64,000 bases of DNA. It comes from Hemileia vastatrix (Eukaryota; Basidiomycota; Pucciniomycetes; Pucciniales; Zaghouaniaceae). The stretch lies in contig JASXTE010000017.1 of assembly GCA_030280995.1 (NCBI GenBank), positions 11,184,498 through 11,248,497 on the forward strand, in the 5' to 3' direction. Under the pieces are notes generated by a model that searched no databases, was not told where the DNA came from, and saw nothing but the letters and a program-made list of their open reading frames with translations. This document shows positions 13,739 through 58,191 of this stretch, piece after piece. The translations under genes and the position numbers were made by a program. How positions within the stretch are numbered: the first letter of the stretch is position 1; each line of letters begins with the position of its first letter.

Positions 13739-13742
13739 TTTG

Positions 13743-20276: not shown

Positions 20277-20286
20277 TCCTCCCTCC
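20277..20286 (-). other. GA3 polypurine tract
   Basis: On the - strand the ten bases just before the 3' LTR read GGAGGGAGGA, an intact purine tract for plus-strand priming. Confidence 0.75.
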
Positions 20287-20324
20287 AATTGAGAATGTCC
20301 GCATTCTTTCTTCATCCAACCACC

Positions 20325-21795: not shown

Positions 21796-23344
21796 ATGGC
21801 TGGATCTCCTGATGTTAACCCTTCTACTCTCCCTTGCTTCACTGATTCTAAGGACTATGCCTGCAAACAGTGCATCCACATGTGCAGACCTTGCACATTC
21901 ACTCTTCTAAATCCTGAATCCAAATTCTACAACAGGGCTTGTGACTCTTCCTATTCCAAAAAGAAAAGATGTGACAGAGACTCCAACTACCCTATTCCTC
22001 CGCCTTCTCCTTCTCACAAATACATCTCCAGATCCCCTACCAGATCCCCAGAGCTTGGTCCTTCCTCTTCCTCTTTATCTTCTGCTCCTTCCAGAAGATC
22101 CAGAAGCTCAGCTTCCCGCACTCTTCCCAAAAGACCAGCCTTAGCCTCACAAGAAACTGCTTTCATCTCTGCCAAATTAGCTCCAAAAGCTTCAAAATCA
22201 ACTCCCATGCTTCTAGACCGCGTCCAGGAGGCCCGCCCGCCTCACCAAACAGTGAAAATCAGGGCCAAAACCTCCAAAAAGGGCCAGAAAATAGCCAAAT
22301 TCATCCAGACAACAACAACAACTCAACCCAACTACCTCCTACTGCTCCCAGAGCAATGAAATCCACCCTTCCAAAGTCCAAAAGCACCAAAATTTACCAG
22401 ATTTCTAAGAGAACTGCCAGAGAACCCCAAGAAGAAACCAGAACACCACACACTGCTCCACAACAACAACTTCGTCCCCAACTAAGACAAAGAAACTACA
22501 CCTCTCCTCTGTCAGCCAACTACTCTTCTGACAGTTCCATCTCTTCAAATTCTCCATCCAGAAGAGAGAAGTCTGCTTCCAAATCCCCCTCTCCTGCTCC
22601 ATCCTTTATCAACCCTGGTACTCCATCACCAGCACCTCCTCCAGCTGAATCCAAAAGAAATAACAACCACAACAACAACAATCTCACTGCTCCAACTAGG
22701 CCCCAGGAACATCAGCATCCCGGTTCACCTTCTCAGGATCCTTCAGAGGAAGACCATGAGAATCCATATCTTTCCCTAGTTGATCCACCCACTATGACCA
22801 TTAAAAAATCGTCAGAGATCCAAATCCCAGCTGCTTACAGATTTGATGAGCTTCCAATCTGTAAGTACCAAATTAATTTACCCATTTCTTTAACAAAAAT
22901 AATTAATGATCCAATTCTTCTTGCCTAGTTGGAACCCCTCCTCCTGAATCTATTATTGGAGTTGGCCAAACTCTTGAAACTTCTTTGACCCTGGATTATG
23001 GAGACATGAAGAAACACCTAAGCACCATGTGTTCCAATATGCTTAAAGCCTTTGCCCTCCATGGACCTTTGAATGACTTTGAAAAATCCCTGAGAAAGCA
23101 CCTACTGGACGACCACTGGAAAATGTCTAGGATCATTAAATACACCCTCCAGAACTCCATTCCTACCTCTTCTTCTTCCTCCTCTGAACTTCCCTCTAAT
23201 CCAATTCCTGACCATTACAATCCCTATAATCTCTCCAGCAGGATGCACTTCAAAGAACACAGTGCTTCCCACAATCCCAACAAAAAACAAAAACCTCATC
23301 ACAATCCGGACCAGCCTCCAGAAGCTTCATCATCCAGCCAATGA
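21796..23344 (+). pseudogene. GA3 antisense gene B: cysteine-module protein, one intron, one frame break
   Basis: The ATG at 21796 opens a protein with C23, C26, C30, C33, C49 and C59, i.e. C-x2-C-x6-C, 15 residues, then C-x2-S-x6-C. The missing cysteine (S52) is a cysteine in GA1. A long Ser/Pro/Arg-rich region follows. The frame shifts between about 22280 and 22356: compared with GA1, GA3 has ~20 extra bases near 22277-22300, and removing 20 bases exactly restores one frame. An intron of 68 bp follows, then a final exon (22929-23344) with a helical region (GDMKKHLSTM, LRKHLLDDHWKMSRIIKY) and a Lys/His/Asn-rich tail. The full frame would be 486 residues. Function unknown; the design is parallel to gene A. 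Confidence 0.65.
22861..22928 (+). other. Intron in GA3 antisense gene B
   Basis: This 68-bp intron has donor GTAAGTACC and acceptor TTGCCTAG, with branch-like AATTAATGA. It is a phase 1 intron; the exons join in frame. The donor is identical in GA1, where the acceptor has decayed. Confidence 0.8.
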
Positions 23345-24592
23345 GCTCCTGCAAAAGATTAGAAACATAAAAATAATATAAAACAAATAATAAAAAATAA
23401 TTTCAGAATTTTTTTTTTTACATTCTACCGATATACTAAAATAAAAAATTAATAATTAAAATGAAATGAAATAAAATAAATGAAATAAAATAAAATATAA
23501 AAAATAATACAAATGGTATCCCCCAGCCAATTGATGAGCTGATCCCCTGATACCTTACCCACATCCAAGTGCACCTTGATGTGGATACACAATTAATTCT
23601 TTTAAATGGTTAACAGAAAACAAAATTCAAAAAATTTTAGAAATTCAGAAAATAATAAAAATAATGAAACACAGAAACACATGAAATAAATAATAAATAA
23701 AAATAAGAAAATAGCATTGCCCGGCCAATTGATGAGCCTTTCCCCACCAATGCTTGCCCACATCCAGGTGACCCTGATGTGGTAACACCCTATATTTTTG
23801 ATTTTATAATTTTAAACAACCCCCATAAAAAAAGTAAAAGAAAAAAAGAGAAAAAAGAAAATAATCTAAAACTGCTATCTAGCAAAAACATAACTGCAAA
23901 ATCAAAGAAAGTCCAGCTCCATAGATGGCCCAATAAGAGAAAGTCCGGTCCATAGAAATGATCACTGGGTGGTCTCCCTCCAATAAGTAAAAATGATGGG
24001 AGACCACCAGTGATCCACCACCAATCTGAAAGAACCAAAGATAAAGAAGCCAGTCCCAAACCAATTTAAAGTCATAGCGGACTTAAACCTGAATAATAAA
24101 CAGCAGAACTAGAATTCAACTAGAAAAAACAAAAGACTTGAGACAGACATTCTGGGGTAACTGTTCTACAGAGCAGCCAGCTCATCAGTTACCCCCACAC
24201 TTGCCAAAATAAAATCTAGAAGCCCCCCCTGTGTACCATCTAACAAAAACACAACACCCAACACAAAAAAAACTAAAACCAATAAGAGTGAAGAGACCAG
24301 CACATGAAAACCAGAGGAAATTCCAGTTTAAAGTCATAGAGGACTGAAACCTGTGAAAAGAAACCAATACTAGGGTTCAACCAAATTAAGAGAAAGGGTT
24401 GAAAACAGACAATCTGGGGTAACTGTAGATAGAGCAGCCAGCCCATCAGTCACCCCTACACTTGCCAAGATCAAATCTAGAAGCCCCACCCATGGGTACC
24501 CTCTAACAAAAGTTTCCAACAAACAGATGCATAGCATCACCACAAAAAAACCAAAATTAAAGAATGGTCCGTAGTTTATCCTCATTGCGGAG
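23345..24592. repeat. GA3 structured non-coding zone between pol and gene B
   Basis: No gene is seen. Ordered elements, all shared with GA1: two related CCAATTGATGAGC...CCACATCCA..TGATGTGG modules (23521-23588 and 23715-23788), the 54-bp covarying stem-loop (23962-24015), and two GGGGTAACTG...CAGTTACCCC hairpins (24154-24195 and 24416-24456). Each hairpin has an inner GAGC-AGCCA-GCTC stem and is followed by a TCTAGAAGCCCC...GGTACC segment. Confidence 0.75.
23962..24015. other. Conserved covarying stem-loop, GA3
   Basis: Arms ATCACTGGGTGGTCTCCC and GGGAGACCACCAGTGAT flank the loop. Compared with the reverse complement of 7800-7853 only two of 54 bases differ, and they pair with each other (T-A here, G-C in GA1). 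The loop is identical. Confidence 0.75.
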
Positions 24593-26263
24593 TCACTTTT
24601 CTTCATGCCTAGTGCCTCTGGGATAAAACCTCTTCACTTGGTCTGCAGCCACCCTCTTTTTCAAGACTGCACCATCCAACTCTTCCAAAACATAAGAACC
24701 TCCAGACGCCTGAGATCTGACTCTGTAAGGTCCATTCCATCTGTCAGCAAACATTTTCCCCCACTGACTCTCCAAACTTCTATTATACACCAAAACCAAA
24801 CAACCGGGTTTCAAGGGATTCTTGAGTCTATGAGCCAACTTCTTGTCCCAGTACCTGACTGATTGATTCCTAATCTTCATCATTCTAGAGTATGCCTTCT
24901 CTTGAAATTCCTCTCTACATTCCAACTGTTGCATCCTGGCACAGAGCAAATCTTCTGTTGAGTGCACGTCATCCCAATCAATTCCAAGATAAGAGACAGC
25001 TTCCAAGTCCACTGGTAGAATGGCTTTCTGACCAAACATTAACTCATAAGGAGAATAGCCAGTTGTCCTCTTCACAGTGACCCTATCAGCAAATAAAACC
25101 AAGGGTAAATAATGCCTCCACTTTTCAGCACTATCTCCGCACATCTTCACCAAAGCATTCATAATAACTTGATGGCCTCTTTCAACCATGCCTTCAGCTT
25201 CAGGATAATACAGTGTAGCCACTCTAACTTTAGAACCAACACTAGCCACAGCTTCTTTAAATTTGGCACCAAACTCCAGCCCACCATCAACAGTCACCAA
25301 CTTTATCAACCCATACCTATAAATCCACTCCTTCTTCAAAAACTGTGCCACATTCTTGGCAGTCAAATTAACCAGAGGCACTGCCTCAACCCAACCAGAC
25401 AAATCATCCCTAGCAAAAATCAAGTATTTATACCTGCCCTCTTTAATATGGACAGCATCCAGACTGACTCTTCCAAAGACAGTTGATTCACCAGTAGCAC
25501 GGCCCACCTCTTTAGGTTTCAAGTGACTTCTTCTTTGACATTCTTCAAAAGATTGAACCCAACCCTGCACAGCCAACTTCATACCCGGCCACCAAAATCT
25601 GTCTGCTACTCTTCTATAAGTCTCCCCAAAGCCTCTATGACCAAGGTCTTCATGCAAAGACTTCAAAACCAATTCTTGACCCTTCTTCTGAGTCACCACC
25701 ACTTGAGGATTAGGATTTCTCCTTCTCATCAACCGCCTTCCTGACACATAAAATCCAGGACTCTTCTTCTTGATTGCCAACCAAGTATCATCATCACAAC
25801 TATCTGGCCTCTCCAAGGTCAACAGATATTCCACCAAAATAAAATAAAACCCAGACTGACCCCAGGTCTCATCTTCAAAATCCAACAAAACAACATCCAA
25901 GGGTACAACTCTGTCATCAAAATCACCAGTGTGAACATGAGCCAATTGAGCAGCCCAACCAGGACACCAATCCTTAAATTTTGGCACGTCCTTCACTTTC
26001 CATTGAACCTTGTGAGAATCCAGTTCACTAACAAAAACATTCTTTTCCAATTTTGAGCTGTCCCAAACAACAACTCCATCTTCATAAACAAAAACATCCT
26101 GATCACCAGAATCAAGATCAGATCCAGCCAGTTTAGCCTCTTGGGGGAGGTCAGAACAATCATCCAGTTTAGCCTCATGGGGGAGGACAGAACAATCATC
26201 CAGTTTAGCCTCATGGGGGAGGAGAGAAAAATTCTCAGCACCCTTTGTGCTGGCTCTAAACAC
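24593..26263 (-). CDS. GA3 integrase (pol C-terminal segment)
   Basis: The open segment has 556 codons, in frame with the RT segment but separated from it by a TAA at about 26284-26286 where GA2 has GAA. Residues 15-45 hold three 12-residue repeats of the type LPHEAKLDDCS. The zinc-binding N-domain has H204 and H209, but the C-x2-C reads F239-x2-C242, so one ligand is lost. The catalytic triad is visible: D269 (SLDAVHI), D326 (TVDGG) and E361 (MVERGH). A GPY/F module (WNGPYRV, near 510-515) ends the protein, and there is no chromodomain. Integrase inserts element cDNA into nuclear DNA. It is likely inactive here because of the upstream stops and the missing zinc ligand. Confidence 0.85.
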   Translation of the reverse strand: MFRASTKGAENFSLLPHEAKLDDCSVLPHEAKLDDCSDLPQEAKLAGSDLDSGDQDVFVYEDGVVVWDSSKLEKNVFVSELDSHKVQWKVKDVPKFKDWCPGWAAQLAHVHTGDFDDRVVPLDVVLLDFEDETWGQSGFYFILVEYLLTLERPDSCDDDTWLAIKKKSPGFYVSGRRLMRRRNPNPQVVVTQKKGQELVLKSLHEDLGHRGFGETYRRVADRFWWPGMKLAVQGWVQSFEECQRRSHLKPKEVGRATGESTVFGRVSLDAVHIKEGRYKYLIFARDDLSGWVEAVPLVNLTAKNVAQFLKKEWIYRYGLIKLVTVDGGLEFGAKFKEAVASVGSKVRVATLYYPEAEGMVERGHQVIMNALVKMCGDSAEKWRHYLPLVLFADRVTVKRTTGYSPYELMFGQKAILPVDLEAVSYLGIDWDDVHSTEDLLCARMQQLECREEFQEKAYSRMMKIRNQSVRYWDKKLAHRLKNPLKPGCLVLVYNRSLESQWGKMFADRWNGPYRVRSQASGGSYVLEELDGAVLKKRVAADQVKRFYPRGTRHEEK

Positions 26264-26284
26264 TGGAACATCTTTGTCAAACTC

Positions 26285-27679
26285 TTAAGAATCAGAATCC
26301 TCATCTGTAGGTGGCCTCCTTGATAATCCATCAGGCATAGTAAAAGTTTTACCTGGTTTGTGTACCAGGTCATAAGAAAAATGTTGAATAAATGCCACCC
26401 ACCTAGTCATTGGAGCATTTGGAAGACTAGGTGTATTGATCATCTGAACCAAAGATTTTGCATCCACCTGCAGCTCAAAATGCTGCCCCCACAAAAACGT
26501 CTGTAGCTTCTTTAAAATTTTAGCTACACCACACAATTCCAACTTAGGTTGAGAATACCTAGATTCCACCTCATTAAACACCACAGACTCATACCTTACT
26601 GGCCTGACCCTCCCAGTCTTATCCTCCTGAGACAAAAAAGCACCAGCAGCAGTATAACTTGAGTCCACTGCCAGATAAATTTTTCCAGCACCAACACCAT
26701 AATCCAACTTGTGAAGAACAATATCTTCACCAACAACCTTTTTCAACTTCTGAAAAGCCTCTTCACACTCTTCAGTCCATTCCCAATCTGCATCTTTTCT
26801 GGTCAACCTCCTTAAAGGTGAAGCCAACAAAGAAAAATCCTTAATAAAAATCCTGAAATATACACATACACCCAAAAATCCCCTGACTTCAGTGGTATTT
26901 TTAGGCCTTGGCCATGACTGAATTTTATTAATCTTCCTCTTCGCCATAATCCTTCCCTCTTTCCATACCACATTACCCAGAATTTCCAAAGCAGGAACAC
27001 AACAACAGAATTTTGACCCTGAAATCGTCAAATCAGCCTCTTCAATTCTGAACAACACTCTCTCTAGAGTTATTGCATATTCCCACACAAACCTCCTTAT
27101 GCCACGGTTCCCCACTAACACCTCATTACCATAATCTGTGGATGGTCCTTTAATTCCACCATCATCAATAAAAATACCAGCATGAGTAGGAACCTCATCC
27201 TGCAAAATCCAAGCCATCTGTGCTTGATAAACTGCCACTGAATTATTTGCTCCTTGAGGCAACCTAGTGAGCTGAAATCTTCCCAAAGGAGTCTCAAAAG
27301 TTGTGAGAGGCCTTGAATCCATATGTAGTTCCCTATCATCATAACCACCCATAATATCACCCAAACCATAACACACCCTTCCAGCAAAAGCTTCAACAAA
27401 ATCCTCTGCACTTGGCGGCATACCAGCGTCCTTGATAGTGACTCTATTCAAGGCTCTAAGATCATGAATCACCTGCAACTTTCCATTCTGCTTCTTTACA
27501 CAGAACACCGGACTTGAGTAACTGGATGTTGATTGTTCATAAAACCCAGTCCTGACTCTTTCCCAAACAATCTTTACAAAATCCTCTCGAATAGCGGCTG
27601 GAATTGGAATAGGTTTGATTTGCCAAGGTTCATGACAAACAACAGGAATCAAGTAAGGTTCCCCATAAGAGTACTTCAA
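26285..27679 (-). CDS. GA3 reverse transcriptase-RNase H (pol middle segment)
   Basis: The open segment has 464 codons. The RT palm shows CYGLGDIMGGYDDREL (near 103-118), LTRLPQGANNS (138-148) and the catalytic FIDD at 170-173 in place of the usual YxDD. The connection domain has QSWPRPKNTTEVRGFLG (254-270). RNase H has D339 (LAVDSS), E381 (KLELCGV) and D406 (VDAKSL), followed by the MTRWVAFIQHF and KPGKTFTMPDGLSRR signatures of Ty3 RNase H ends. It is preceded by an in-frame TAA (about 27680) where GA1 and GA2 encode glutamate; without it, linker and RT would be one polyprotein. Confidence 0.9.
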   Translation of the reverse strand: MKYSYGEPYLIPVVCHEPWQIKPIPIPAAIREDFVKIVWERVRTGFYEQSTSSYSSPVFCVKKQNGKLQVIHDLRALNRVTIKDAGMPPSAEDFVEAFAGRVCYGLGDIMGGYDDRELHMDSRPLTTFETPLGRFQLTRLPQGANNSVAVYQAQMAWILQDEVPTHAGIFIDDGGIKGPSTDYGNEVLVGNRGIRRFVWEYAITLERVLFRIEEADLTISGSKFCCCVPALEILGNVVWKEGRIMAKRKINKIQSWPRPKNTTEVRGFLGVCVYFRIFIKDFSLLASPLRRLTRKDADWEWTEECEEAFQKLKKVVGEDIVLHKLDYGVGAGKIYLAVDSSYTAAGAFLSQEDKTGRVRPVRYESVVFNEVESRYSQPKLELCGVAKILKKLQTFLWGQHFELQVDAKSLVQMINTPSLPNAPMTRWVAFIQHFSYDLVHKPGKTFTMPDGLSRRPPTDEDSDS

Positions 27680-27688
27680 TACACCCCT

Positions 27689-28597
27689 TTACTCCTCAAC
27701 AAATGCCACTGCCTTTTCCCTTAGCACAATAACGTGCAACAACAACTTCTTTTCTTCTTCAGACAACCATCCATCAGGACCAAAATTAACAACCTTCAGT
27801 CTTTCGGCAGTCACCCTAGCCGTCTCTACGAATTCTGGAGGATTCTTCACCAATGGAGTACAGTACGGATCTCTTGACAAAGGAGGTCTCTTCAAGGGCG
27901 GACTCAAACCCACAGGCATAGGCTCATTGACAGGCCTAATCTTCTGCGCTACCTTCTTATACTTTGCCACTCCACCTTCAACTTGACCACCAGACCTGGA
28001 ACCAAAACCAAGGGTTTCCCCATTGCTCACATGTGTGGCCAAGGTAATGTTTTTGAAAGGTGTAGAAGAAACCCTAGTGGTGCACAATTGGGAGGACTTA
28101 CTTTTAGACCCCAATCTCACCACTCCAAAACTTTTCCGCAATTCCACATCTTCATCCTCACTTCCAACTTCCAAATCTTCAAATCTTGATTCATCTTCTG
28201 AATCACATCTTCTAAAATTGTGCAGTTTATCCTCATGCTGGAGGCCCAAAAATCGATCCTGATGATCTTCTCTCTTCAAAATTTTCTGCAGTTTAACCTC
28301 ATTCTGGAGGCCCAAAAATAGATCTTGACGATCTTCACAAAAATATTTTGTGTCTTCTTTATTCATTATCTTTAGATTTTTTTCTTGATTTTCATGAATT
28401 ATCTTGAAATTTTTATCTTCTTTTCTCGAGTTTTCTTCTGACCTACAAAAATAACCAGGGGTTTCCCCAATGCTCACAGGTGTGGCCCAGGTAATGTTTT
28501 TGAAAGGTGTAGAAGAAACCCTAGCGGTGCACAATTGGGAGGACTTACTTTTAGACCCCAATCTCACCGCCCCAAAACTTTTCCGCATATCTTTCAA
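27689..28597 (-). CDS. GA3 pol linker segment with internal repeats
   Basis: This region of 302 codons has no recognised enzyme fold. It contains a duplicated ~40-residue block (RKSFG-VRLGSKSKSSQLCT, then RVSSTPFKNIT-AT) at about residues 5-45 and 155-195. Between the blocks are Lys/Glu-rich sequence and two repeats of the type QDxFLGLQxExKL. The last ~90 residues (CTPLVKNPPEFVETARVT, FGPDGWLSEEEKKLLLHVIVLREKAV) lead into RT and resemble the pre-RT region of this Ty3 family. It begins 230 nt beyond the gag-pro stop in another frame. Confidence 0.65.
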   Translation of the reverse strand: MKDMRKSFGAVRLGSKSKSSQLCTARVSSTPFKNITWATPVSIGETPGYFCRSEENSRKEDKNFKIIHENQEKNLKIMNKEDTKYFCEDRQDLFLGLQNEVKLQKILKREDHQDRFLGLQHEDKLHNFRRCDSEDESRFEDLEVGSEDEDVELRKSFGVVRLGSKSKSSQLCTTRVSSTPFKNITLATHVSNGETLGFGSRSGGQVEGGVAKYKKVAQKIRPVNEPMPVGLSPPLKRPPLSRDPYCTPLVKNPPEFVETARVTAERLKVVNFGPDGWLSEEEKKLLLHVIVLREKAVAFVEE

Positions 28598-28826
28598 TAA
28601 AGATATATAACCAATCTTCTTCTTTAAAATTGAATTAAAAATAATTTAAAATCTTGAGAGAGAACAGAGACTTGATAAAAAACTTGATGAATACTGCAGA
28701 GAAGAGAAACATTAAAAAGAGAAAGTTGAAAATCCACTTGGTATATCTCCAAGGGAGCTGACCTACTACAACCTGGGATTTCCTTATCTTGGGGAGAGGT
28801 TGTAGCACTAGGGTGATAAGCCCTAA

Positions 28827-31208
28827 TTACTCTAAAAAAGACAGACTCTCAATAGAGCCTGAGCCACACTCCAAAAAACCAGAGGCAGTACCCACTTCCT
28901 TCCTTCTCCTACAGCAGTCCATGCACTGGCACATTGAAGATAAACCAGGCCTAGTCTCCCAACAATCCTCTCCAGGGGATGACAACCTCATGTGAAGCCT
29001 CCTTTCGTCTTCACCAGTAAACTCCAAACTGATTCCAAAATCAAATTGATAACCAATTCTTGCCTGAAAATCCATCAAGAATGGCCCACCCAAAACTGCT
29101 TTTACATTACCTTTAGCAATGTAAAAATGAACATTCCCTGAGGCTCCTCCAACATCTAACTTCACAAACTCTGAAGTTCCAACCAATTCAGTGACATGGC
29201 CACCGATCCCTCTCAAATTCCCACCAATACCAGTTTTGATGGGGAGGCCCATATGAGTTGCCTCAAACAAAGAAATCAGGTTTATCTGAGAACCTGAATC
29301 CACCAATGCCCTTGCCTCCCTGCCATTCAGAGTGACATTGACATATCCCAGAGGAGCAGAAAAATGAGTTTCCAACCCCTCACCAAACTTTTCAGCAGAA
29401 TCACAAATGTATTCTACCTCACCAGAAGAAACCCTTCTCCTGGTCAACAACTTTTTCTGCCTATCAGCCAGCCCTGGACTGATAGCATACAATTCCCCGT
29501 AAGATAGGGAAACCTGACCCTGATTCATCCTTTCCAGGACAGAGTCCATAAAATTAACTTGACCAGACACCATTGGCCTCTCAAAGTGAGCTCTTTGCTT
29601 CACCACCTTGGTCCTAGAAGCTTCTTGAGGACCAGCACCACCAACAGATTTACCATTAACAGGAACCAAACCAGATCCCTCACCAGAACCTCTGACTTCA
29701 ACAGGCTTTGGAAATGAAGCCAAAGGGACATCCTCCTCAGAGTCAGAATCCACCTCCATTGGCATTGGCTCACCATTCAGGTCCAATGCACCAAAACTAG
29801 GGGGGCCCATGTCAGCCATACCCTTCTGCATCTTGTACAGCTCCTCTTTGCTGTACCTCTTCCTAGCTGTACTCAGCTTAGGATCACCCTTTGAAGCATT
29901 TGGCTTTGGTTGGGCCTGAGAACTGCTCTTAGGCCTACCCACCTTCCCTGCTTCCACATCATAAACACCAGCCAAGCATTCACCACTTGACTGTCCACCA
30001 CAAGAATACAACTCCAAACCACCAAAGGAAGTAGAAAAAGAGACCTTATTGACCTCCTTCCCCTTTTCCTTGACGTCCTCATCTACCTTAACAGAAGACT
30101 TTCCCTGATCAGGAATCTCCTCAAACCTTGGCCTCCTTTGATTGAGACCACCCCTTCTCCTGACCAAAGCAACAGGAGCCTGCCCCTCACTGGGCTTCAC
30201 AAAAGAACCGTCAGGGAACTTAAAAACCCTGCCATCAAACTCCACTTTTCCTTCAGACACATCTCTGTTCAATGCCCAACAATCATTGGACCTGTGCCCC
30301 CTCCTACTGCAATAAGAGCAAACCCATGGATCACTCCTACCAGCCCTCCTTTCAGAATCTCTTGGCTGAGAAGGTGCCTTATTAACCTTCTTGGCCTCCT
30401 GAACAAAAATGTGCAGCTGCTTTGTAAGATCAGCCAACTGCTCCACCATTGGGTCCCTCTCCTGTTTGGGAACCTGCACCAAATTTTTCTCCTCCTTCTT
30501 CTCCCTAACTTCCTCTTCAGCCAAAGCCTCACTGACCTTGCTGACATACTTGGCACACCCCTCCTGATAGGTGTCCACAGCCAATAACTTTAAATGGGCC
30601 TCAACAGCCTCCTTCACCTTATCCAAGGCAGGCAACTTCTGATCCCTATTATAAAGAGTCTTCATCAATTCCTTTCTTGACAACTCCTTCAACACATCCA
30701 TCCTGACATCTCTAGCCAGGGCAGACAAAAAAAAATCCTTGGCAGCATTTTCATGTGCCAGCTCCTCCACTTCCACCAAATATTCCACCACAGGATCAAA
30801 CTGTAGCAGAAACTTCCTGTAACTATGTAAGTTACCAACACCACCATAAGATTGCCATTCACTGAAAACCTTGTTCAGATCCACCATAGTGAACCTGACA
30901 CCCCATCTATCCACCATCTCCCTACACAACAATTTCCAATCCCTCTTCTTGTAGCCAGACATGGCCACAATCTCCTTCACCACTGACCTATCACCAATGA
31001 AGAAGATAATCTGCTTCACCATGTCCAGGTAGGAAGCACCATCCACTCTAGCAGCAGTTTCATACTTTTCTAGAAACCACTTGACATCCTCCCCATTAAA
31101 CTTGGTACCATCCCAAGTTTTAATCCTCACACACTCCCTAACCATCACAGAAGGAGGACCATCCCCCCCACTGACAGTCACCACAGGAATAGCAGAACCA
31201 GAAGCCAT
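28827..31208 (-). CDS. GA3 gag-protease polyprotein
   Basis: This intact frame (793 codons from the chosen ATG at 31208, which aligns with the starts of GA1 and GA2; the frame extends 7 codons further upstream) encodes the particle protein and protease. The capsid region covers about residues 25-230 (VRIKTWDGTKFNG, YLDMVKQIIFFIGD, EWQSYGGVGNLHSYRKFL). The zinc knuckle CSYCSRRGHRSNDC is at 297-310 (C-x2-C-x4-H-x4-C). Acidic and Lys-rich linkers follow. The retropepsin domain has the catalytic ALVDSGSQ with the aspartate at about 637, and VLGGPFLMDF further on. A Cys-rich tail (CQCMDCCRRRK) ends the protein at SLSFLE-stop. The stop position is conserved in GA2, so it is the normal end of this protein. 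Confidence 0.9.
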   Translation of the reverse strand: MASGSAIPVVTVSGGDGPPSVMVRECVRIKTWDGTKFNGEDVKWFLEKYETAARVDGASYLDMVKQIIFFIGDRSVVKEIVAMSGYKKRDWKLLCREMVDRWGVRFTMVDLNKVFSEWQSYGGVGNLHSYRKFLLQFDPVVEYLVEVEELAHENAAKDFFLSALARDVRMDVLKELSRKELMKTLYNRDQKLPALDKVKEAVEAHLKLLAVDTYQEGCAKYVSKVSEALAEEEVREKKEEKNLVQVPKQERDPMVEQLADLTKQLHIFVQEAKKVNKAPSQPRDSERRAGRSDPWVCSYCSRRGHRSNDCWALNRDVSEGKVEFDGRVFKFPDGSFVKPSEGQAPVALVRRRGGLNQRRPRFEEIPDQGKSSVKVDEDVKEKGKEVNKVSFSTSFGGLELYSCGGQSSGECLAGVYDVEAGKVGRPKSSSQAQPKPNASKGDPKLSTARKRYSKEELYKMQKGMADMGPPSFGALDLNGEPMPMEVDSDSEEDVPLASFPKPVEVRGSGEGSGLVPVNGKSVGGAGPQEASRTKVVKQRAHFERPMVSGQVNFMDSVLERMNQGQVSLSYGELYAISPGLADRQKKLLTRRRVSSGEVEYICDSAEKFGEGLETHFSAPLGYVNVTLNGREARALVDSGSQINLISLFEATHMGLPIKTGIGGNLRGIGGHVTELVGTSEFVKLDVGGASGNVHFYIAKGNVKAVLGGPFLMDFQARIGYQFDFGISLEFTGEDERRLHMRLSSPGEDCWETRPGLSSMCQCMDCCRRRKEVGTASGFLECGSGSIESLSFLE

Positions 31209-31278
31209 TCCTCCTGACCAAAACACCAAAAAGAGCCAACCAAAGAAAACAGAGATTCCAAAGAACTAGCAAGTTCTA

Positions 31279-31295
31279 CCCCATGTTGGGCGCCA
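31279..31295 (-). other. GA3 primer binding site
   Basis: On the - strand it reads TGGCGCCCAACATGGGG, four nt after the 5' LTR end at 31300. It differs from GA2 at one base. Confidence 0.8.
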
Positions 31296-31299
31296 GAAA

Positions 31300-32392
31300 T
31301 GTAGACAATCCTATAGTACTAGCTATAGGCCTTGACCAAGGGAGTTGGAGAAAAACCAGAGAGAAAATCCCCTGTCCCTTTAGAAAAATAGAGTTAGATT
31401 TACTTGCTAAAGTAAGTTGGTTCCTGTTTTGCTAAAGCTCCTGTTTAACACACTTGACTGGTTGATGAGCCAAGAAAGTAGTCCCCAGATAGAATACCAG
31501 ACCAAAGAACTGAAATGTAGAACAAATTCCACACCAGAGACAGCAAAGATACTTGATGTAGGCTGCAAATCCACACCAGAGACAGCAATAATACTTGCTA
31601 TAGCTTGCAAGACTATAACAGAGAAAACAGTTGCCAAATTTAAGTTAAATGAAGAACTTACTTGCAACAAACACAGCCAATTGTGGCCAGAAAACAGTGA
31701 AAACTGAGTTAGGAACAATGAGATCACCTCCGGATGGTTGTATGATGATTAAGGTTGCCCCAAACTGTCTTATTCACTATGTACACACAGACCACTAACT
31801 AAGAGCCTATGCGCACCCACCAATCTGGCGCCTGTACCCACCAAATGGCATAAAAAACCCTCCTGAAGCGCTCCCCAACCTCCTAAAACAGAGGCGGGCA
31901 GGCCGCCCAACGTCGGAGATGCCGCCTGAAGCGGCCCGGCCTTCCTGAAGCCAGAAAACCAATAAAAACCACTAATCTACTTAGAAAAATTAGCTACAAC
32001 TACTAAAACCTTTAAAACACGGAATTTCACTATAACAACATTGTGACATGAAATATAGAGAAAAATTAGCTCTATCCAATGGTACTAAGCACGTAACCCT
32101 AAGACTTAAGGTTAGCCCGTAAAACACGAAAAACAAAATTAAACAGCAATCTTTTATAAATGAAAAATGAGGAAATGACCCCTTAAAACTCAGAATATGA
32201 AAAATGTCTACAAGACATAAAATATAGAGAAAAACCAAGGCTATCCAATGATAGCACCCACATACCCGCAGACCCAATATCCACGGAATAAAACCAGAAA
32301 AATACCCAATTCTTTAACAAATGTCAATTAAGACATGCACAAACTGCGCCAAATCACACAACAAAGGCCCCTTCCAATGTTGGAAGACCACA
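31300..32392 (-). repeat. GA3 5' LTR
   Basis: This 1093-bp LTR matches the LTR at 19188-20276 end to end, with scattered substitutions. It has TG...CA ends in both readings. The primer binding site side faces lower coordinates, confirming - strand orientation. Confidence 0.92.
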
Positions 32393-41082: not shown

Positions 41083-41835
41083 TGTCACCGGACGACCTAC
41101 GCACAAGGTCGAGGATGTTCCTGGAAGTGAGATGAGGGATTTAGAAACTTCTTTGAAGCACAGAGGAATGATTCAAGGAAATGATTCGAAGGTCACTTGA
41201 AGAAATAGCTACAGGTTTGAGGTTCGTCCGAGAAGAATTATAGACTAGTTTCAGAGGTAATAGTAATTCTTAAAATCTCACAAAGGGTTGGAAACTCAAT
41301 AATCAAAGATTTAGGATTTAGGAATGAATATTGAGAAAATAAGAGAAAGATACAATAACAATGATTTTAACTTTAAAGATTTACCACTATTAATGTAAAT
41401 ACGATTTTATAATTTAATTCTAAGGAATATTGAACCAAATACCCAACCCCTTTTATATCCTTTGTTCCTCCTCGCATTGACCTCCCTTCCATCGCACCAT
41501 TACTAACATACACTTAGACCCTCTTCGCTAAATATCCTTCCATGCTCAATTTACCCCTTTTTAATTAATTAACAAAACTTTAATGAAAACTACTACTGTA
41601 CTATTTCGTTGAACCTAGCGCTGTGCATCGCTTATTGAAAAGGACTAAGGCACCCTATTGGGAGATTGACTAATTTAGATTTAGAGTTTAGGCTAGCGCA
41701 GTTAAATAGTAAGTACACAAAGGAAATTGCAGTTGCTATGGAGAATCGCTTTCTGCGCTTTGATTATAGATTTAGGACTCGATGTTATTGATTTAATGAG
41801 CTAATTTCGCCTCGAGTGTCATGTGGCGCGTGACA
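41083..41835 (-). repeat. GB 3' LTR
   Basis: It runs from TGTCACCGGACGACC to GGCGCGTGACA on the + strand and matches 48723-49462. It carries the same TATA box (41450-41457) and the same 14-nt self-priming complement (41408-41421) as the 5' LTR. No purine tract adjoins it on the sense side. Confidence 0.92.
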
Positions 41836-41845
41836 GATGCCCGGG

Positions 41846-41853
41846 TATAAAAA
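41846..41853 (+). promoter_or_regulatory. Probable TATA box of GB antisense gene
   Basis: TATAAAAA lies 11 bp inside the 3' LTR boundary and 93 bp before the antisense ATG at 41947, facing the antisense direction. The location suggests a dedicated promoter rather than LTR read-through. Inferred from sequence only. Confidence 0.5.
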
Positions 41854-41946
41854 ATTGCGAACTCCGTTGAGCTTGAGCCATCTTCCCACACTAGTTTCCC
41901 TTCTTCTAATAATTTTTTTCTCACTTCTTAATTACTCTTTTTTATA

Positions 41947-42897
41947 ATGAACTGCCCCACTCCCACACCTACGCCTCCACACCCTAAAGGGGATGGGGGA
42001 ATGATCACGCGACAGTTTTCACAGACTTGCAGGGCTTGTGAAAGCATGGAGTATTTCTGTGTTGAAAGTACGGCGACTCGAGGCCCTCGCCAGAAATGCA
42101 AGTTTTGCCGTTGGCGGCGAGTGGTGTGCGATGCGTTGACGAAGAACGCAGAAATCGAAAAGCAATTTACCAAGACTAAATTTTGGGTAATTCCTAAAAC
42201 CAAAGAGGTGGTCGAAGACATTTGGGATGTCTCTATCGAAGATGAACAATCGGTGGGGGAAAATGATAAGGAATTAAACAATGAGATCTCAACCTGGGTA
42301 ACCCAGGCCACAAATTCAAAGCGAGGTGTCAAGGAAGAGGTCGACGAGTTGGTGGAGGAAGATGAAGATGAAGTCCCTGTTCCAGGGCGGGCACCCAAGA
42401 AACGACGGGTGGTCATCGAGGACAACGAGGAAGAGAGAGAGGTAGAGGTCGAAGTGGCGCCAAGGTTATTTTTAGAGCCTGACCCCATCTTCGAGGTAAG
42501 TTTTAATTGTTTATTTTAAGGATGAAGTTACTGATGAGTTTTGTTTTAGACATCGAATAACCTTGAAGAGCCGATTGCAGAGCCTGCGTTGGTTATACCA
42601 ACTGAGGCAAACCCTCCGGCCACGGAAGTAATTGAAGAACCTGAAGACACCCTGGACCAGGTGTGGTCGAAGAAACCTCGTCAAGGTCGACGAGTAAGGT
42701 TCGTGGAAGAATTATGTGGGGAGGTCGACACAATTATTGACGCGGCATCCTTCGACGTGGCAGAGGAGCTCTTGGAGATGGGAGAGGTGGTTCCGGTAGG
42801 AGAGGAGGAGGTATTTGAGAAATTCAGGAAGGAGATAAGGGTAGTTTTGGAGAAAATGAAAAGATTGGTTCGAGAGAAATTAAAAGAAAAGATTTGA
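41947..42897 (+). CDS. GB antisense gene: Zn2Cys6-like nuclear protein, one intron
   Basis: Exons 41947-42495 and 42550-42897 join in frame to give 298 residues, opposite to gag-pol. Cysteines 28, 31, 38, 51, 54 and 61 form C-x2-C-x6-C, a 12-residue linker, and C-x2-C-x6-C, the same spacing as GA3 gene A. Basic residues (CRWRRVVC) again sit in the second half. A long acidic region follows (ELVEEDEDEV), with PKKRRVV at 150-156, a classic nuclear localisation pattern. The C-terminus is predicted helical and charged (FEKFRKEIRVVLEKMKRLV). It has the outline of a fungal transcription regulator, but this role is inference. It is open with no defect, unlike the sense genes of the same copy. Convergent with pol. 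Confidence 0.78.
42496..42549 (+). other. Intron in GB antisense gene
   Basis: This 54-bp intron has donor GTAAGT and acceptor TGTTTTAG, with branch-like TTACTGATG. It is a phase 0 intron after a GAG codon. Without splicing the frame ends soon after the donor. Confidence 0.82.
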
Positions 42898-43816
42898 AAT
42901 GAAAAGGAGATGTAAAGAAGTAGAAAAAAAATTTGTATTTTAGTTTTATTTTATTTTATTTTATTTTATTTTATTTTTTTATTGTAGGTGAATGTTATTA
43001 ATTTTACAAGATTTGAGAGAGAGAGAAAAAGAAAAAAAAAGAAGTTTAAAATAAAAAAATTTTAGAATTTGAAAGAAGAAATTTAAAGAAAGAAAAAAGG
43101 TTGTTTAATTGAAGGAAGTTTTAATGTTTTTAAAAGGAAATTTTTATGTAAGAAAAGAAAGAGAAAAAAAAGAAAAACGGTTTTGTGATTGAGATGAGTT
43201 TGTTAAATTGAGGATTTAATTTTTTTTTTTTTTTTTTTTTTTAAGAAATTTTAGTTGAAAAGTGAGGAAGAAGAAAGAAAAGAAAAAAACAGAATTTTGA
43301 ATTTTAAGAGAATTTGAAAAGAAGAATTATTTGTTTCGAAGAATTATTATAGGGAGATTTTAGAGGTTGAAGTTAAGTTTGAGGAAATGGTCGTGTCGTA
43401 CAAGATTTGATGATTCGAAGGAAAGAAAGTTTTTAAAGAGAGAACAAATTTTTTTGGAAGAGAAATTTTTTAAGAGAATTTTAAATTTAAGAAAAGAATG
43501 TATTTAAAGAATTGAAAAAGAAAAGAAAGAAAATATTTAGGGAGATTTAAGAGTTTTTTATTTTTATTTTATTATTTATGTTTATTCTATTTATTTTATT
43601 TTGTTTTATTATTTATATTTATTCTATTTATTTTATTTTATTTTATTTTAATATTAATTTTGATTTTATTTTTAGTTGGTTTTGGAGGAAATTTTATAGA
43701 AGGAGAAGAAAGAAAAAAGAAGAGAGAAAAAAGAAAACAAGGCTAAGAAATTTAAGAGGTGTTTTAGATTTTAAAGAAAAAAAGAAAAAGAAAAGAAAAT
43801 TTTAAATAAAGAAATT
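42898..43816. other. GB purine-rich spacer
   Basis: This low-complexity region of AAAGAAAG-type and TTTTATTTTA-type runs lies between the convergent ends of the antisense gene and pol. I see no gene or terminator motif. Any open frames here are compositional. Confidence 0.7.
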
Positions 43817-46800
43817 TTAAGGTTTTGGTTTTAAAGGATATTTCAAATGAAAAGATTTTAGGAGTTCAGGAGCATTAGAAACATTGATGGCTGGTTCCCA
43901 GGATGTTTTGTCTGAGTCATTGAGGAAGCCTTCCCATTCCACGAGGTATTGAAGTTTCCCCTTGCGTATTCTTGAATCAAGGATACGACTTACTTCCCAC
44001 TCTAGATGATCTTCTACTTCGACCGGTTCCGGAGGGGGTTGGTTCTTGCCCGGGTATATTTCTCGAGCCAGTTCCAGGAGAGATACATGGAAAACAGGGT
44101 GAATCGCCTGCCATTTAGGAGGTAACTTGAGTCGAACTGCAGTTTTAGAGACTTCAGAGTCGATTTCGAATGGTCCCAAGCGCTTTTCAGCCAGTTTCTT
44201 TGATGGTCTTGTTGTTCGAATGTTTCGTGCGTCGAGCCATACTTTGTCGCCTGGTTTAAAGGAAGGAGCAGATTGTCGATGTTTGTTGGCCTGTTCCTTG
44301 TATCTTCGAATCGCTGATTCCAAATTTGTTTTAAGTTCTTCTTGGAGTCGTGATATAGTTCGAAGATAATGTTCTGCAGGATGATTAGTTCCTACATGGA
44401 TTGAGTTGAATCAAGGATGTCGTCCATAAATGGTTTCGAAGGGAGATTGTCGTGTCGAAGAATGAGTCGAGTTATTATAAGCAAATTCAGCCAATGGTAA
44501 CCATGTGGTCCAATCGTCTTTTTGGTAACTGACATACATTCGAAGATATTGTTCGAGGATTTGGTTAACTCTTTCTGTTTGACCATCGGTTTCAGGGTGA
44601 TAGGCCGTGGAGAGATTCCTCGTGATATTGAGTTGTTGACACAGTTGGGTCCAGAATGTGGATACAAACAATGAGCCTCTATCTGAAATAATATCATTCG
44701 GTAAGCCGTGTTTAGAAAATACATATTCTAGAAACAATTTTGACAAATCTTCTGCTGTAGCAGTAGTAGTGGTTTTAATAAAAATAGACATTTTTGAAAA
44801 TCTATCTACTATTACTAATATAGCATCAAAATCATTAGAAAAAGGAAGTTGAGAAATGAAATCCATCGATAAAGATTCCCAAGGTTTAGAGGGAATAGGA
44901 AGTGGTTGAAGCAACCCATGCTTCCGGTGACGGGGAGCCTTATTCCTATTACATTTGTAACAAGCTTTTATATAGGCCTTGATTTCCCTGGTCATACCTG
45001 GCCAGAAGAAATCCCTCGCTATTAACTGGTAGGTTTTATCAACCCCAAAATGACCAGCTAATGGAGAATCATGTCGACTGTTGAAAATCCATAATTTTAT
45101 CTCATTGTTGTCGGGTATGACTACTCTACCTTTGAAGACTAATAGACCTGATTCAATACTAAATCTTTTGGCCCCTTGCTTTGAGAGTATTTTGTCTTTT
45201 AACCCTAAACAATAATTGTCCTTTGACTGAGCTTCGAGGATGTTGGATAGTGGATTTTGAAAAGATTGAATTGTCATCGAATTAAGTTGATGAGTCGTTA
45301 ACATTGATTCGTTGAAGATTGATTGCACATTTTCTGGGTTCTTTTCAGCAAATGTGTCCCCCCGCTGTGGGTAAACGCTGTCCCGATGTGACAAGATATC
45401 TGGGACAATGCAGTTTTTTCCTGGGCGATAGGAAATAGAGAAAGAAAATTCAGACAAAAATTCAGCCCACCTGGCTTGACGCCTGGTTAACACTTTAGAA
45501 GACATGAAGTATTTCAAAGCATTATGATCTGTTAAAATTTGAAAAGGACTATCTAGGCTGAGAAGAAAAGAACGCCATTTTTTAAGACAATGGATGATAG
45601 CTAAAAGCTCTTTGTCATGAATTTCATAATTTAATTCTGCGGCTATGAGTTTGCGTGACTCAAAAGCAACAGGATGAAACAAATTTGTTTCAGGATTTAA
45701 TTGGGAGATGACCCCTGCAATAGCATAATCGCTCGCATCCGTCTCAACTATTGTCGAGGCAGAAGGATCAAAATGTCGAAGAATTGGGGCTGTGGTGAAC
45801 GCTGTTTTTAGTGCTTCGAATTCCTTTTGTGCTGTAGAAGTAAAAACAAAAGGAATGTCTTTTCTAAGAAGAGAAGTAAGATTGGAAATAGTTTTAGAGT
45901 AATCTTTAATAAATCTTCTATAGAAGTTTGCAAAACCCAAAAATCCTTGGAGTGATTTAATGTTTTTGGGCTCAGGCCATTCCAGGATTTTCTGGACTTT
46001 TTTGTCATCCATGACTAAACCGTCAGTGGACAACGTAAAACCCAAGAAATCAATTGATTTGAGGTGGAATTCGCATTTATTATGTTTGCCGTAGAGACCA
46101 TGATCTCAAAGACGATTTAGGACCTGTCGAACATGATGAATATGTTCATCCAGTGTTTTCGAGAATATTAAAATATCATCTAAATAGACGAGTACAAATT
46201 GTTCAACAACATCTTGAAAGATATCATTAACTAAAGTTTGAAAAGTTGAAGGTGCGTTACATAATCCAAAAGGCATAACTAAATATTCAAAACTACCAAA
46301 TCTAGTGCGCATTGCAGTCAGTGGTTCATGACCTTCCGCAATGCGAATCAGATTGTAAGCGCCTCTAAGATCAATTTTAGAAATGAAATTAGCACCATTG
46401 AAAAGGGTAAGAAGTAATGACATAGGAGGAAAAGGATATGCATTCTTCTTCGTGACTGTGTTGAGCTTTCTACAGTCAACACACAACCTAAGACTACCGT
46501 CCTTCTTTTTTACAAAGAGGACAGGGGAGCCGGTTGGAGATTTACTGGCTCTGATGAAACCTTTGGCTACATTCTCTGCAATGTAGTCTCGAAGAACTTG
46601 AGATTCGTCCTTCGATAAAGAATAGACAGGACCTGCCGGAGGTACTGGGCCTATTAACTCTATTTGATGATCGTAGGGTCGATGAGGTGGTAACTTATCG
46701 GCCTTACGGATTGAGAAAACATCGAGGAAATCATGGTAGATTTCAGGTAGAGTTGATTTAATGGCTTCAACGTTGATTCGGTCGTCCTCTTCATCTTCGA

Positions 46801-47466
46801 GAGAATCTGTCAAGGGGATACCTGTATTGAGAGAGCAGAATTCGATTACTTCGAGGCAATTTAAATCCTCTTCGAGTGAAGTCATTGAGCTAGAAGGGTT
46901 AGCCAATTGCTCATTTAGAGAAGGATCAGATGCTTGCAAGTCATCTGGCAGAGACTTGTCCTCTAGCAGGACGTTGTCAGGCGGGTTGTTTAACTCCCTA
47001 TTGACCTGCATTGAAGAATCAGAAATATACTTAGAGCGTGGGGTGATCAATCCCCTAGTCCAATCAATTTCAGGATTCCAATGCATTAAAAGGTCATGGC
47101 CAAGAATGCTATTGTCCATCCTTGGGGCGTCCAAGACTGATAATTCCCACTCGAAGGGGGGAAAGTTCGGAAAGTTGAAAACCCATAAAACTTTCTTACT
47201 TACCCAATATTTGGGTTCCTCTGATTCGACCAAATAGATTCGAGTTCGATCGATATCTGTAAATGTTAGTTGAAGCTTCTCGGCAAAAGATAAACTAACA
47301 AAAGAAATTGAAGCTCCAGAGTCTATAAGACAACTGAAGGGGATATCCTCCTTAAAAAGAATGAATCTCAAGCGGTTTAAGGCAACTCCAGTCCTTAAGA
47401 CATGGAGGTTCTGTGCACTGGGAGAGATAAGATAGTTTTCTTTGCACACAAGTAAGCTATCTACTA
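43817..47466 (-). pseudogene. GB pol (PR-RT-RH-IN-chromodomain), two nonsense codons
   Basis: This is a single frame of about 1216 codons reached by -1 frameshift from gag. Protease: LIDSGAS near 47320. RT: FVKKKDGSLRLCVDCRKLN, KIDLRGAYNLIRI, MPFGLCNAPSTFQ and the catalytic VYLDDILIF near 46180. RNase H: ETDASDYAIAGV, HDKELLAI, LTDHNALKYF. Integrase: H-x-H/C-x2-C region (GHFGVDKTY, CYKCNRNKA), then triad positions MDFISQLP, ISDRGSLF and GQTERVNQ. A GPF-type block (LGPFEID) precedes the chromodomain (WEVSRILDSRIRKGK, QYLVEWEGF, TSWEP). TGA codons at 46106-46108 and 44411-44413 replace expected arginines (RL-R-DHGLYGK and GRHP-R-FNS). Otherwise the frame is intact. Confidence 0.93.
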
Positions 47467-48650
47467 GTTTTTTGACTTCGAACTAGTACCTTCTCTTTCC
47501 TTCAACTTTACACAGTCTTCCAACTTGTGCTTACCCCCACAATACATACATAACCCATTAACTGCTTGTCTCTTCCTCTCAGCTTCTTTAAGTTCCCCTT
47601 TAGGATCCAGTACTTTGCTGATATCGTCTGGGGTCGAGCCTTTTCGTCGAGGTTTATCCTTTCCCTTATTGGGTTTGGATTGAGTCGAGGAGGATTGATT
47701 TGGTCGTGGGTGTAAAGAAGGTCCCAATTTAAAATTTAGGCCTTGAGATTTGTTGGCATATCGACGATGTTGAAGTCGTCCTTGATAAACGCCGTCAAGT
47801 TCGAGGGTTCGATCCATTAAATCCGTTAAAGTAGTCATCTTCTGACCGTGAAGATTTAATTGATCTAGAATCCTTAAAGGAAGTCCTTTCTTGAAATGAT
47901 ACTTAAGGGCAGCATCATTCCAACCTACTCGAGTTTGAAGTGCTCTGAAGTTTGAGATATATCAGAGGCTTTACCATTATCACTCATGCGAAGAAAATCA
48001 AGTTCAATTTCGGCGTTGTCTGTTTCATTAGGGTCCCCAAACAACGTAAAAAGTTGGTCTTCGAACTTTTCCCAATTATTGATAAGTAAGTGGGTTTCTG
48101 TCGAAGAAAGCATGAGCAGATAAGGTTCAAACCATCTTGCTGCTTTCCCGGCTAGGAATGAGGAAGCGTAAACAACCTTTGATCGGTCGCTGTTAAAGGT
48201 TTGAGGGTCATTATGGAACAGTAGCTTGCAGGTTTGCAAGAAGGGTCGCAATCTGTTGGGGTGATCTCCGTCGAATTTGTCAGGAGATTTCATAGAAGGA
48301 GTTTTGAACTTAGATCCCTCTGAAGACGTTGGATTTGAGAGGGTTTTCATGAAAAGCCTCATGAAATCTTCCAGAGAGTTAGATGGTCCAGGTTCTGAGG
48401 ATTGGCCAGAAGGGTGATTGGCATGGGCGGATGGTGCTTCGTGCATTGTATCCTCTCCTTCTTCTTCGTCACAAGAATCCACAAAATCTTGAGGGATGTC
48501 TTCTACAGATTGAACTGAATTTTGCCGTTCCCTAAGGTCGAGTGGTTCCAAAGAGTGAGTGCGAGAAACAGACCTTGTGGCTGTTGGCCTGCCTCTAGCG
48601 CGAGCTCTAGTAGTAGCGCCCGTAGGAGGAGTGTATTGAACAGGTGCCAT
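47464..48650 (-). pseudogene. GB gag, one 1-bp frameshift
   Basis: It starts at the ATG at 48650. Capsid signature: KSPDKFDGDHPNRLRPFLQTC, FNSDRSKVVYASSFLAGKAA, then RWFEPYLL, typical of fungal chromovirus gag. One T is missing near 47960-47967, which shifts the frame; the other frame continues as FRALQTRVGWNDAALKYHF. It ends with a zinc knuckle CMYCGGKHKLEDC (C-x2-C-x3-H-x4-C) and SKSKN-stop at 47464. The last codons contain the frameshift heptamer. Confidence 0.9.
47467..47473 (-). promoter_or_regulatory. Probable -1 ribosomal frameshift heptamer in GB
   Basis: On the - strand the end of gag reads TCA AAA AAC TAG. The heptamer A AAA AAC is a canonical -1 slippery site placed directly before the stop. 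Slipping back one base continues as CTA GTA GAT AGC into the open pol frame. Frame arithmetic confirms pol is -1 relative to gag. Confidence 0.75.
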
Positions 48651-48707
48651 TTTAAAATTTTAGAAACACCTAAAAGGACGTAGTGGTGCAAAGAATGAGA
48701 ACTACGG

Positions 48708-48721
48708 AGAATTAAATTATA
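48708..48721 (-). other. GB self-priming primer binding site
   Basis: On the - strand TATAATTTAATTCT follows the 5' LTR after one G. It is not tRNA-like. It is the perfect 14-nt complement of AGAATTAAATTATA in the LTR (49035-49048), at the position where the mRNA should start. This is the arrangement known for Tf1/sushi elements. Confidence 0.7.
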
Positions 48722-48722
48722 C

Positions 48723-49462
48723 TGTCACCGGAGGACCTACGCACAAGGTCGAGGATGTTCCTGGAAGTGAGATGAGGGATTTAGAAACTTCTTCGAAGCA
48801 CAGAGGAATGATTCGAAGGTCACTCAAAGTAATAGCTACAGGTTCGAGGTTCGTTCGAGAAGAATTATAGACTAGTTTCAGAGGTAATAGTAATTCTTAA
48901 AATCTCACAAAGGGTTGGAAACTCAATAATCAAAGATTTAGGATTTAGGAATTAATATTGAGAAAATAAGAGAAAGATACAATAACAATGATTTTAACTT
49001 TAAAGATTTACCACTATTAATGTAAATATGATTTTATAATTTAATTCTAAGGAATATCGAACCAAATACCCAACCCCTTTTATATCCTTTGTTCCTCCTT
49101 GCATTGACCTCCCTTCCATCGCACCATTACTAACATACACTTAGACCCTCTTCCCTAAATATCCGTCCATGCTCAATTTACCCCTTTTTAATTATTTAAC
49201 AAAACTTTAATGAAAACTACTACTGTACTATTTCGTTGAACCTACCGCTGTGCATTGCTTATTGAAAAGGACTAAGGCACCCTATTGGGAGATTGACTAA
49301 TTTAGATTTAGAGTTTAGGCTAGCGCAGTTAAATAGTAAGTACACAAAGGAAATCGCAGTTGCTATGGAGAATTGCTTTCTGCGCTTCGATTATAGATTT
49401 AGGACTTGATGTTATTGATTTAATGAGCTGATTTCGCCTCGAGTGTCACGTGGCGCGTGACA
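48723..49462 (-). repeat. GB 5' LTR
   Basis: This 740-bp LTR runs TGTCACCGGAGGACC to CGCGTGACA on the + strand. It is followed by the GGTTG target copy at 49463-49467. Confidence 0.92.
49077..49084 (-). promoter_or_regulatory. GB LTR TATA box
   Basis: On the - strand TATAAAAG lies 36 nt before the AGAATTAAATTATA segment. That segment would then be the first bases of the transcript, as self-priming requires. Confidence 0.65.
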
Positions 49463-49467
49463 GGTTG

Positions 49468-55560: not shown

Positions 55561-55570
55561 CCAATATTTA

Positions 55571-55809: not shown

Positions 55810-55812
55810 TTA

Positions 55813-58095: not shown

Positions 58096-58191
58096 CCTGT
58101 CTTCTATTTAAAACTGGCAACCCCTGATTCAACTAATACTAGCTCTCCAACTTCATCAAGTACCTCTTCTGAACAAACAGAACTTCCCAAT

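Follow-up and report, generated by a model that had tools for sequence, protein, structure and literature searches.

An antisense gene with a half-swapped Zn2Cys6-like module in two distant Ty3 lineages of Hemileia vastatrix: a candidate element-borne transcription regulator

The sequence studied here is a 64-kb stretch of Hemileia vastatrix DNA (the window), which we read in all six frames. Within it, a Ty3 chromovirus, GB, carries an antisense gene between pol and its 3' long terminal repeat (LTR), and a second group of Ty3 elements, GA, carries two antisense genes, g1 and g2. On balance we favor the reading that all three encode element-borne transcription regulators with a Zn2Cys6-like module whose halves are swapped, a conclusion drawn from the sequence and held with somewhat better than even confidence. 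The features of GB on which it rests are the following.

41083..49463, minus strand: GB element, a Ty3 chromovirus (LTR pair by self-BLAST; Pfam domains)
41083-41836 and 48723-49463, minus strand: 3' LTR and 5' LTR of GB (self-BLAST)
48708..48721, minus strand: GB primer site, 14 nucleotides (nt), complementary to a stretch inside its own LTR
41947..42495, plus strand: antisense gene exon 1, 183 codons (sequence and translation)
42496..42549, plus strand: antisense gene intron, 54 nt, GT-AG (GTAAGT...TTTTAG)
42550..42897, plus strand: antisense gene exon 2, 115 codons and stop, charged C-terminus
42028..42129, plus strand: six-cysteine module C-x2-C-x6-C-x12-C-x2-C-x6-C, Zn2Cys6-like, halves swapped
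42394..42414, plus strand: PKKRRVV, beside strongly acidic stretches (read from sequence and translation)

The antisense gene lies on the plus strand, within the interval bounded by the 3' LTR and by position 43817, where the chromodomain frame ends, and has 298 codons in two exons that are predicted to be joined by splicing at the 54-nt GT-AG intron. An earlier note on this DNA had described the gene, its strand, the cysteine motif, a single short intron and PKKRRVV with an acidic stretch, and all of these are present in the sequence. We take PKKRRVV to be a segment resembling a nuclear localization signal (NLS). No homologue of the GB protein was found at E <= 1 in a search of 5.8 billion proteins (1692 candidates).

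Comparison of copies from the host genome (747.6 Mb in 791 contigs) indicates that the GB gene is under purifying selection. A query with GB exon 1 gave 6835 first-look candidates; all 150 scored matches cover the exon at >= 92% identity, and 136 of the 150 are without a stop. With exon 1 of GA g1 there were 8028 first-look candidates, and 147 of the 150 scored were without a stop. The scored matches are the best-scoring copies, so that these counts overstate integrity, and the use of the gene itself as query makes only gene-bearing elements visible. For GB we compared 30 copies, one of them that of the window, whose flanking sequences are unrelated (0 of 435 pairs alike). The ATG, the six cysteines and the GT and AG of the intron are retained in 30 of 30, with intron lengths of 54-68 nt. 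Exon 1 is open in 29 and has a stop in one. In exon 2, 7 of the 30 copies contain internal stops, L047 and L058 differ in length by one base, and L046 and L047 lack the final stop codon. Third codon positions diverge by 0.118, against 0.027 and 0.017 at the other two positions, in exon 1, and by 0.094, against 0.037 and 0.028, in exon 2. The ratio of nonsynonymous to synonymous divergence (dN/dS) is 0.096 for exon 1 (bootstrap 0.058-0.142), a value biased low by the exon 1 query, and 0.225 for exon 2 (bootstrap 0.142-0.372), which is free of this picking bias because exon 2 lies outside the query.

These figures leave hardly any room for the view that the frame is open by chance, across from a coding sequence on the other strand. 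In the window copy an open frame of 195 amino acids does face exon 1, but this sense-strand mirror frame is open in just 3 of the 30 copies against the 29 of antisense exon 1, and the concentration of divergence at third codon positions of the antisense frame also speaks against it. Absence of the module from other copies, which the earlier note had named as a reason to abandon its proposal, was not what we found: the gene is present in many copies of both GB and GA.

The Zn2Cys6 consensus is C-x2-C-x6-C-x5..12-C-x2-C-x6..8-C, a spacing that the earlier note had not recognised in the module. GB and GA g1, each with a loop of 12 residues, agree with it; GA g2, with a loop of 15, falls outside. 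The exact form C-x2-C-x6-C-x12-C-x2-C-x6-C occurs three times in the six-frame window (GB 42028-42129, plus strand; GA1 20367-20468, plus strand; GA3 12365-12466, minus strand) and in 0 of 100 second-order Markov resamplings. We compared the modules, those of the GA genes as module pieces, with the Pfam family Zn_clus (PF00172), whose cut-off is 21 bits. In native order, scores remained below it for GB (13.1 and 15.3 bits), GA1 g1 (14.6), another GA g1 (18.6), a GA g2 (15.9) and GA3 g2 (13.0), and GA1 g2 gave no match; the sole module over the cut-off was GA3 g1 (24.5 bits), which passes with its halves exchanged too. With halves exchanged, GB scored 22.4 and 24.1 bits, GA g1 18.3, 24.8 and 29.4, and GA g2 21.6, while the cysteine-poor window copies of g2 reached 14.4 and 10.0. 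Six-cysteine copies of all three module types thus score higher after the exchange. In each, an acidic or neutral CxxC-x6-C half comes first and the basic half second, the reverse of the Zn2Cys6 order, in which the basic half leads. In a shuffle control covering the GB module, 0 of 10 cysteine-fixed shuffles of its exchanged form matched Zn_clus.

Comparisons with proteins of known structure gave weak neighbours. Searched against PDB sequences, the exchanged GB and GA3 modules gave 11 rows, solely LAC9, GAL4, PUT3, PPR1 and HAP1/CYP1, at E values from 0.03 to 5.3. Predicted structures were poor: the GB module model was unusable, and for the GA3 module (predicted local distance difference test, pLDDT, 57) 28 of 30 Foldseek matches were Zn2Cys6 or CBF3 chains, none of them significant. 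Among the host's own Zn2Cys6 proteins, a six-cysteine pattern stands near the Zn_clus match in 19 of the 30 loci fetched, in the order of the profile; they are no fair control for half order because the profile prefers its own. The likeness to Gal4-type Zn2Cys6 proteins (PF00172; GAL4, LAC9, PPR1, HAP1) therefore consists of the six-cysteine spacing, the residue pattern of both halves and these weak PDB and Foldseek neighbours. The differences are the exchanged halves, the native GB score below the cut-off, the retrotransposon carrier and the lack of any further fungal regulator domain in a Pfam scan of the GB protein.

The counterparts in GA are laid out as follows.

19187..32392, minus strand: GA1, a Ty3 element; LTRs 19187-20276 and 31299-32392
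20325..20965, plus strand: GA1 g1, antisense; exon 1 20325-20655, intron 20656-20705, exon 2 20706-20965; module 20367-20468
21796..23344, plus strand: GA1 g2, antisense; exon 1 from 21796, intron about 22861-22928, exon 2 to 23344; a frame change breaks this copy
21862-21972, plus strand: GA1 g2 module, 15-residue loop, one cysteine lost
11872..12508, minus strand: GA3 g1, antisense; intron 12129-12177; module 12365-12466; one in-frame stop upstream of the module
8573..10058, minus strand: GA3 g2, antisense, decayed, several stops; module 9882-9992, one cysteine lost
21035..21644: GA1 AGTC-N6-GACT array, between g1 and g2; nine exact and two one-mismatch sites
24070..24345: two more exact AGTC-N6-GACT sites near the end of GA1 pol (24070 and 24332)
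11432..11785: GA3 AGTC-N6-GACT array; five exact sites

The earlier note had reported one antisense six-cysteine gene in GA. Such a gene is there, and it is accompanied by a second, g2, which was hidden at first because both window copies had lost a cysteine and their frames were broken. The g1 intron is 50 nt in GA1 and 49 nt in GA3, and the spliced frame continues in both copies. The g2 module was found in 26 of 30 host GA loci (window copy included); C-x2-C-x6-C-x15-C-x2-C-x6-C is intact in 18 of these 26, and eight have lost a cysteine, some with a stop at that place. Loop length thus varies, and the spacing of exactly 12 residues that the earlier note had treated as diagnostic is no rule. 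Profiles of g1 and g2 are clearly related (HHalign E 1.7e-6, probability 90%). For the g1 pair, a search of the same 5.8 billion proteins found no homologue at E <= 1 (834 candidates).

Selection on the GA genes is visible mainly between GA1 and GA3, where dN/dS in the predicted frames is 0.40 for g1, 0.38 for the first part of g2 and 0.21 for g2 exon 2; the middle of g2 is weakly constrained (0.53). In every piece the predicted frame alone is low among the three plus frames. Low values occur as well on the minus strand, in the mirror-register frames of g1 exon 2 (0.41; 8 stops) and g2 exon 2 (0.28; 11 stops). In recent GA copies the constraint on g1 is mild (29 of 30 have six cysteines, one has an early stop and one an altered end), and g2 shows none.

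The two carriers belong to lineages that are far apart: GB and GA pol sequences are 23-35% identical. On its minus strand GB has Pfam matches to gag-like, protease, reverse transcriptase, RNase H, integrase and chromodomain families, and the chromodomain (PF00385, Chromo; 48.9 bits) lies C-terminal to the integrase, as in chromoviruses. Its primer site starts one base downstream of the 5' LTR, and the 14-nt complementarity suggests that GB primes itself from its own LTR. The description of GB as a self-primed chromodomain element in the earlier note is therefore borne out. For GA, which the note described as lacking a chromodomain, a scan of four GA1 gag/pol open reading frames at E <= 0.01 detected none. 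Directly 3' of its 5' LTR, GA1 carries TGGCGCCCAA..., and it is probably primed by a tRNA. The GB LTRs are 95.4% identical by self-BLAST (719 matching and 22 mismatching columns on realignment). Of 7982 sequences scored against the GB RNase H/integrase frame, 5202 are relatives at E <= 1e-10; among the 120 listed, Austropuccinia psidii is frequent, at about 50-61% identity, and two proteins reach 65 and 66%.

GA also contains a candidate DNA target. Exact AGTC-N6-GACT occurs 16 times in the window, every time in GA. The GA1 spacer holds nine sites of this one dyad, against a maximum of two for the best dyad in shuffles, and the sites of the GA1 array stand in a longer shared context, CAGTTTAAAGTC..GGACT. 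All of the 30 host GA loci have exact copies, 6 to 11 per locus. Over these 30 copies the half-sites diverge by 0.019, the spacers by 0.032 and the remaining region by 0.045. Conservation equal to that of the half-sites extends to the nine bases upstream (0.020), so that the site may be longer than the dyad. One-mismatch copies number 15 in the window, in the array and scattered, partly outside GA, including one in GB exon 1 at 42014; those outside GA look like chance. PPR1-type proteins use inverted repeats with a six-base gap, and the array may be bound by g1, g2 or a host protein. No repeated dyad in GB rose above shuffles, and GB has no array comparable to that of GA.

Antisense accessory genes of LTR retrotransposons are already known. 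The plant Ty3 elements Retand, Grande and RIRE2 have antisense open reading frames between pol and the 3' LTR (aORF-3R), often with repeat arrays nearby (PMC11963269, PMC7264820), and the GB gene, antisense and between pol and the 3' LTR, has the same placement. The Retand product is a putative DNA binder, as proposed here for GB and GA (PMC11963269, PMC7264820); it contains the TRP28 domain (PF04195), reported from flowering plants only (PMC11963269). In contrast, neither of the two GB exons matched TRP28 at E up to 1, and here the module is Zn2Cys6-like and the host a fungus. Boty elements of Botrytis, also fungal LTR elements, carry an antisense gene, brtn, at the same place according to citing papers (PMC7264820, PMC8365987); the host is an ascomycete, and brtn enters our comparison by citation. 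The VANC proteins of Arabidopsis VANDAL DNA transposons recognise a short motif, YAGTATTAY, arrayed in the non-coding DNA of the element, and their binding and the loss of methylation have been shown (PMC5735166). The parallel that we propose, by analogy, is an element-encoded protein with an arrayed motif in its own element, and it applies to GA, the only one of the two in which such an array was seen. VANDALs differ in being DNA transposons, we claim no sequence relation, and binding and demethylation would be extrapolations for GA. A further antisense product of an LTR element is HBZ, a bZIP protein. HBZ and APH-2 of HTLV are nuclear antisense proteins (PMC11963269), and they resemble the present genes in that respect, with no sequence relation claimed. 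The function of antisense accessory genes of LTR retrotransposons is described as not known (PMC7264820). A Zn2Cys6-like half-swapped antisense gene in a fungal LTR element was not found among the matches listed in a literature search, mostly of open papers, and the available text of a rust-transposon paper (PMC12210899) gave no term matches for such a gene. The general layout is thus known from Retand, Grande and Boty.

How such a regulator would act can be outlined. Antisense transcription would start in or beside the 3' LTR, the transcript would be spliced, and the protein would enter the nucleus. There it would bind as a dimer to DNA of its own family, in GA at the AGTC-N6-GACT sites, and sustain transcription of the element, by activating it or by countering its silencing, in all copies of the family. 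We favor activation or anti-silencing because of the acidic stretch in GB, the apparent abundance of the elements and the VANC parallel. Young elements of the rust Puccinia graminis are methylated, and Gypsy elements give rise to many of its small RNAs (PMC8444563), which makes a need for an anti-silencing factor plausible. The main rival is a negative regulator, the antisense protein or transcript repressing its own family and limiting copy number as a transposon repressor does. An antisense transcript could interfere with sense RNA, and plant-element and retroviral antisense genes have been discussed as regulators either way (PMC7264820). We nevertheless judge repression unlikely, since GB and GA are apparently very abundant, with thousands of first-look candidates, and the acidic stretch of GB seems more like an activation region. 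Less probable still is a protein that binds RNA or protein in the particle and would serve as a nucleocapsid-like accessory or as a tether to chromatin. In favor of this, RNA-binding knuckles have CxxC motifs too, DNA binding by the module is a prediction, and the native-order Zn_clus score of GB is weak. Against this, the knuckle pattern, C-x2-C-x4-H-x4-C, differs from the GB and GA module, GB has the NLS-like segment and GA the dyad array. The layout of a transcription regulator that the earlier note had seen in GB thus gains from the Zn2Cys6-like module, the NLS-like and acidic segments of GB and the signs of selection, and it extends to two distant Ty3 lineages.

Where the module came from is a separate matter, on which the earlier note had suggested ancient inheritance or exchange between lineages. 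Each lineage might instead have captured a fragment of a host Zn2Cys6 gene once, an account of origin alone that is compatible with the regulator reading and that we regard as a serious contender, if not the leading one. Identical spacing is no proof of kinship between GA and GB because it is the general Zn2Cys6 consensus, and the GB and GA g1 profiles align over the module alone (36 columns, 25% identity, E 0.0096, probability 4.3%), with little shared beyond the cysteines. Two captures would, however, have to account for the swapped order of halves in all three module types. That the two groups share this order, the antisense location and a single short intron somewhat favors one source for their modules over two captures, so that the suggestion of the earlier note is favored by the swapped order and weakened by the profile comparison. 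Broader sampling adds little. Scans of viral contigs with single pol queries found nothing; a search with a pol alignment recovered foreign chromoviruses at 28 loci, of which 27 lie in prokaryote assemblies. The exact six-cysteine module is present in 0 of the 28, a result of little weight because just five extend 2.5 kb past the match, and one locus (L010) has a cysteine-rich run under a relaxed pattern. More tentatively, a family of half-swapped Zn2Cys6 regulators may have moved between distant Ty3 lineages, or been kept since their ancestor, each lineage with its own DNA target, and may work as a sequence-specific system of self-activation or anti-silencing; we hold this whole picture to be possible but doubtful.

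Several further observations concern the assemblies and the surroundings of the elements. The eukaryotic chromovirus contigs in several prokaryote assemblies (L002-L028), above all in a metagenome-assembled genome of an uncultured Trichormus, are likely contamination. In the host genome, 80 of 127 Zn_clus rows cover the basic half alone, from profile position 1 to 14-16 (for example, C26:19142668, C348:8182424 and C34:32965751). Most of them lie in short frames, often with 140-149 codons; they look like another repeat family, in which the basic half stands alone or has been displaced, and further families may therefore exist. Ordinary Zn2Cys6 proteins lie on many small contigs of the host assembly (L089-L118) of varied base composition (GC 36-55%), which may be contamination from other fungi. 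GA3 seems to be a plus-strand relative of GA1 that ends in an LTR near 12666-13813, which it appears to share with another plus-strand element, GA2, in a nested arrangement (1-33600 region); GA1, on the minus strand, is inserted in the pol of GA2 at about 19187/32392. Between g1 and g2, GA3 has about 1.2 kb of extra DNA (10100-11400) that is missing from GA1 and is probably another insertion. Satellite DNA (34802-41000, 49569-56500, 62559-64000), whose repeat unit measures about 607-610 bp, surrounds GB and a copia-type element, and the block is possibly centromere or heterochromatin. The latter element showed no antisense six-cysteine module of the exact spacing in the six-frame window.

57519-62558: Ty1/copia element; LTRs of 346 nt, 96.5% identical; RVT_2

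The antisense genes described here suggest a protein of known biochemical class, with a specific candidate DNA target in the case of GA, and so open the idea of a self-regulator to direct test. An exchange of halves in a Zn2Cys6-like domain would, moreover, be informative about the rearrangements possible in this large fungal class of transcription factors.
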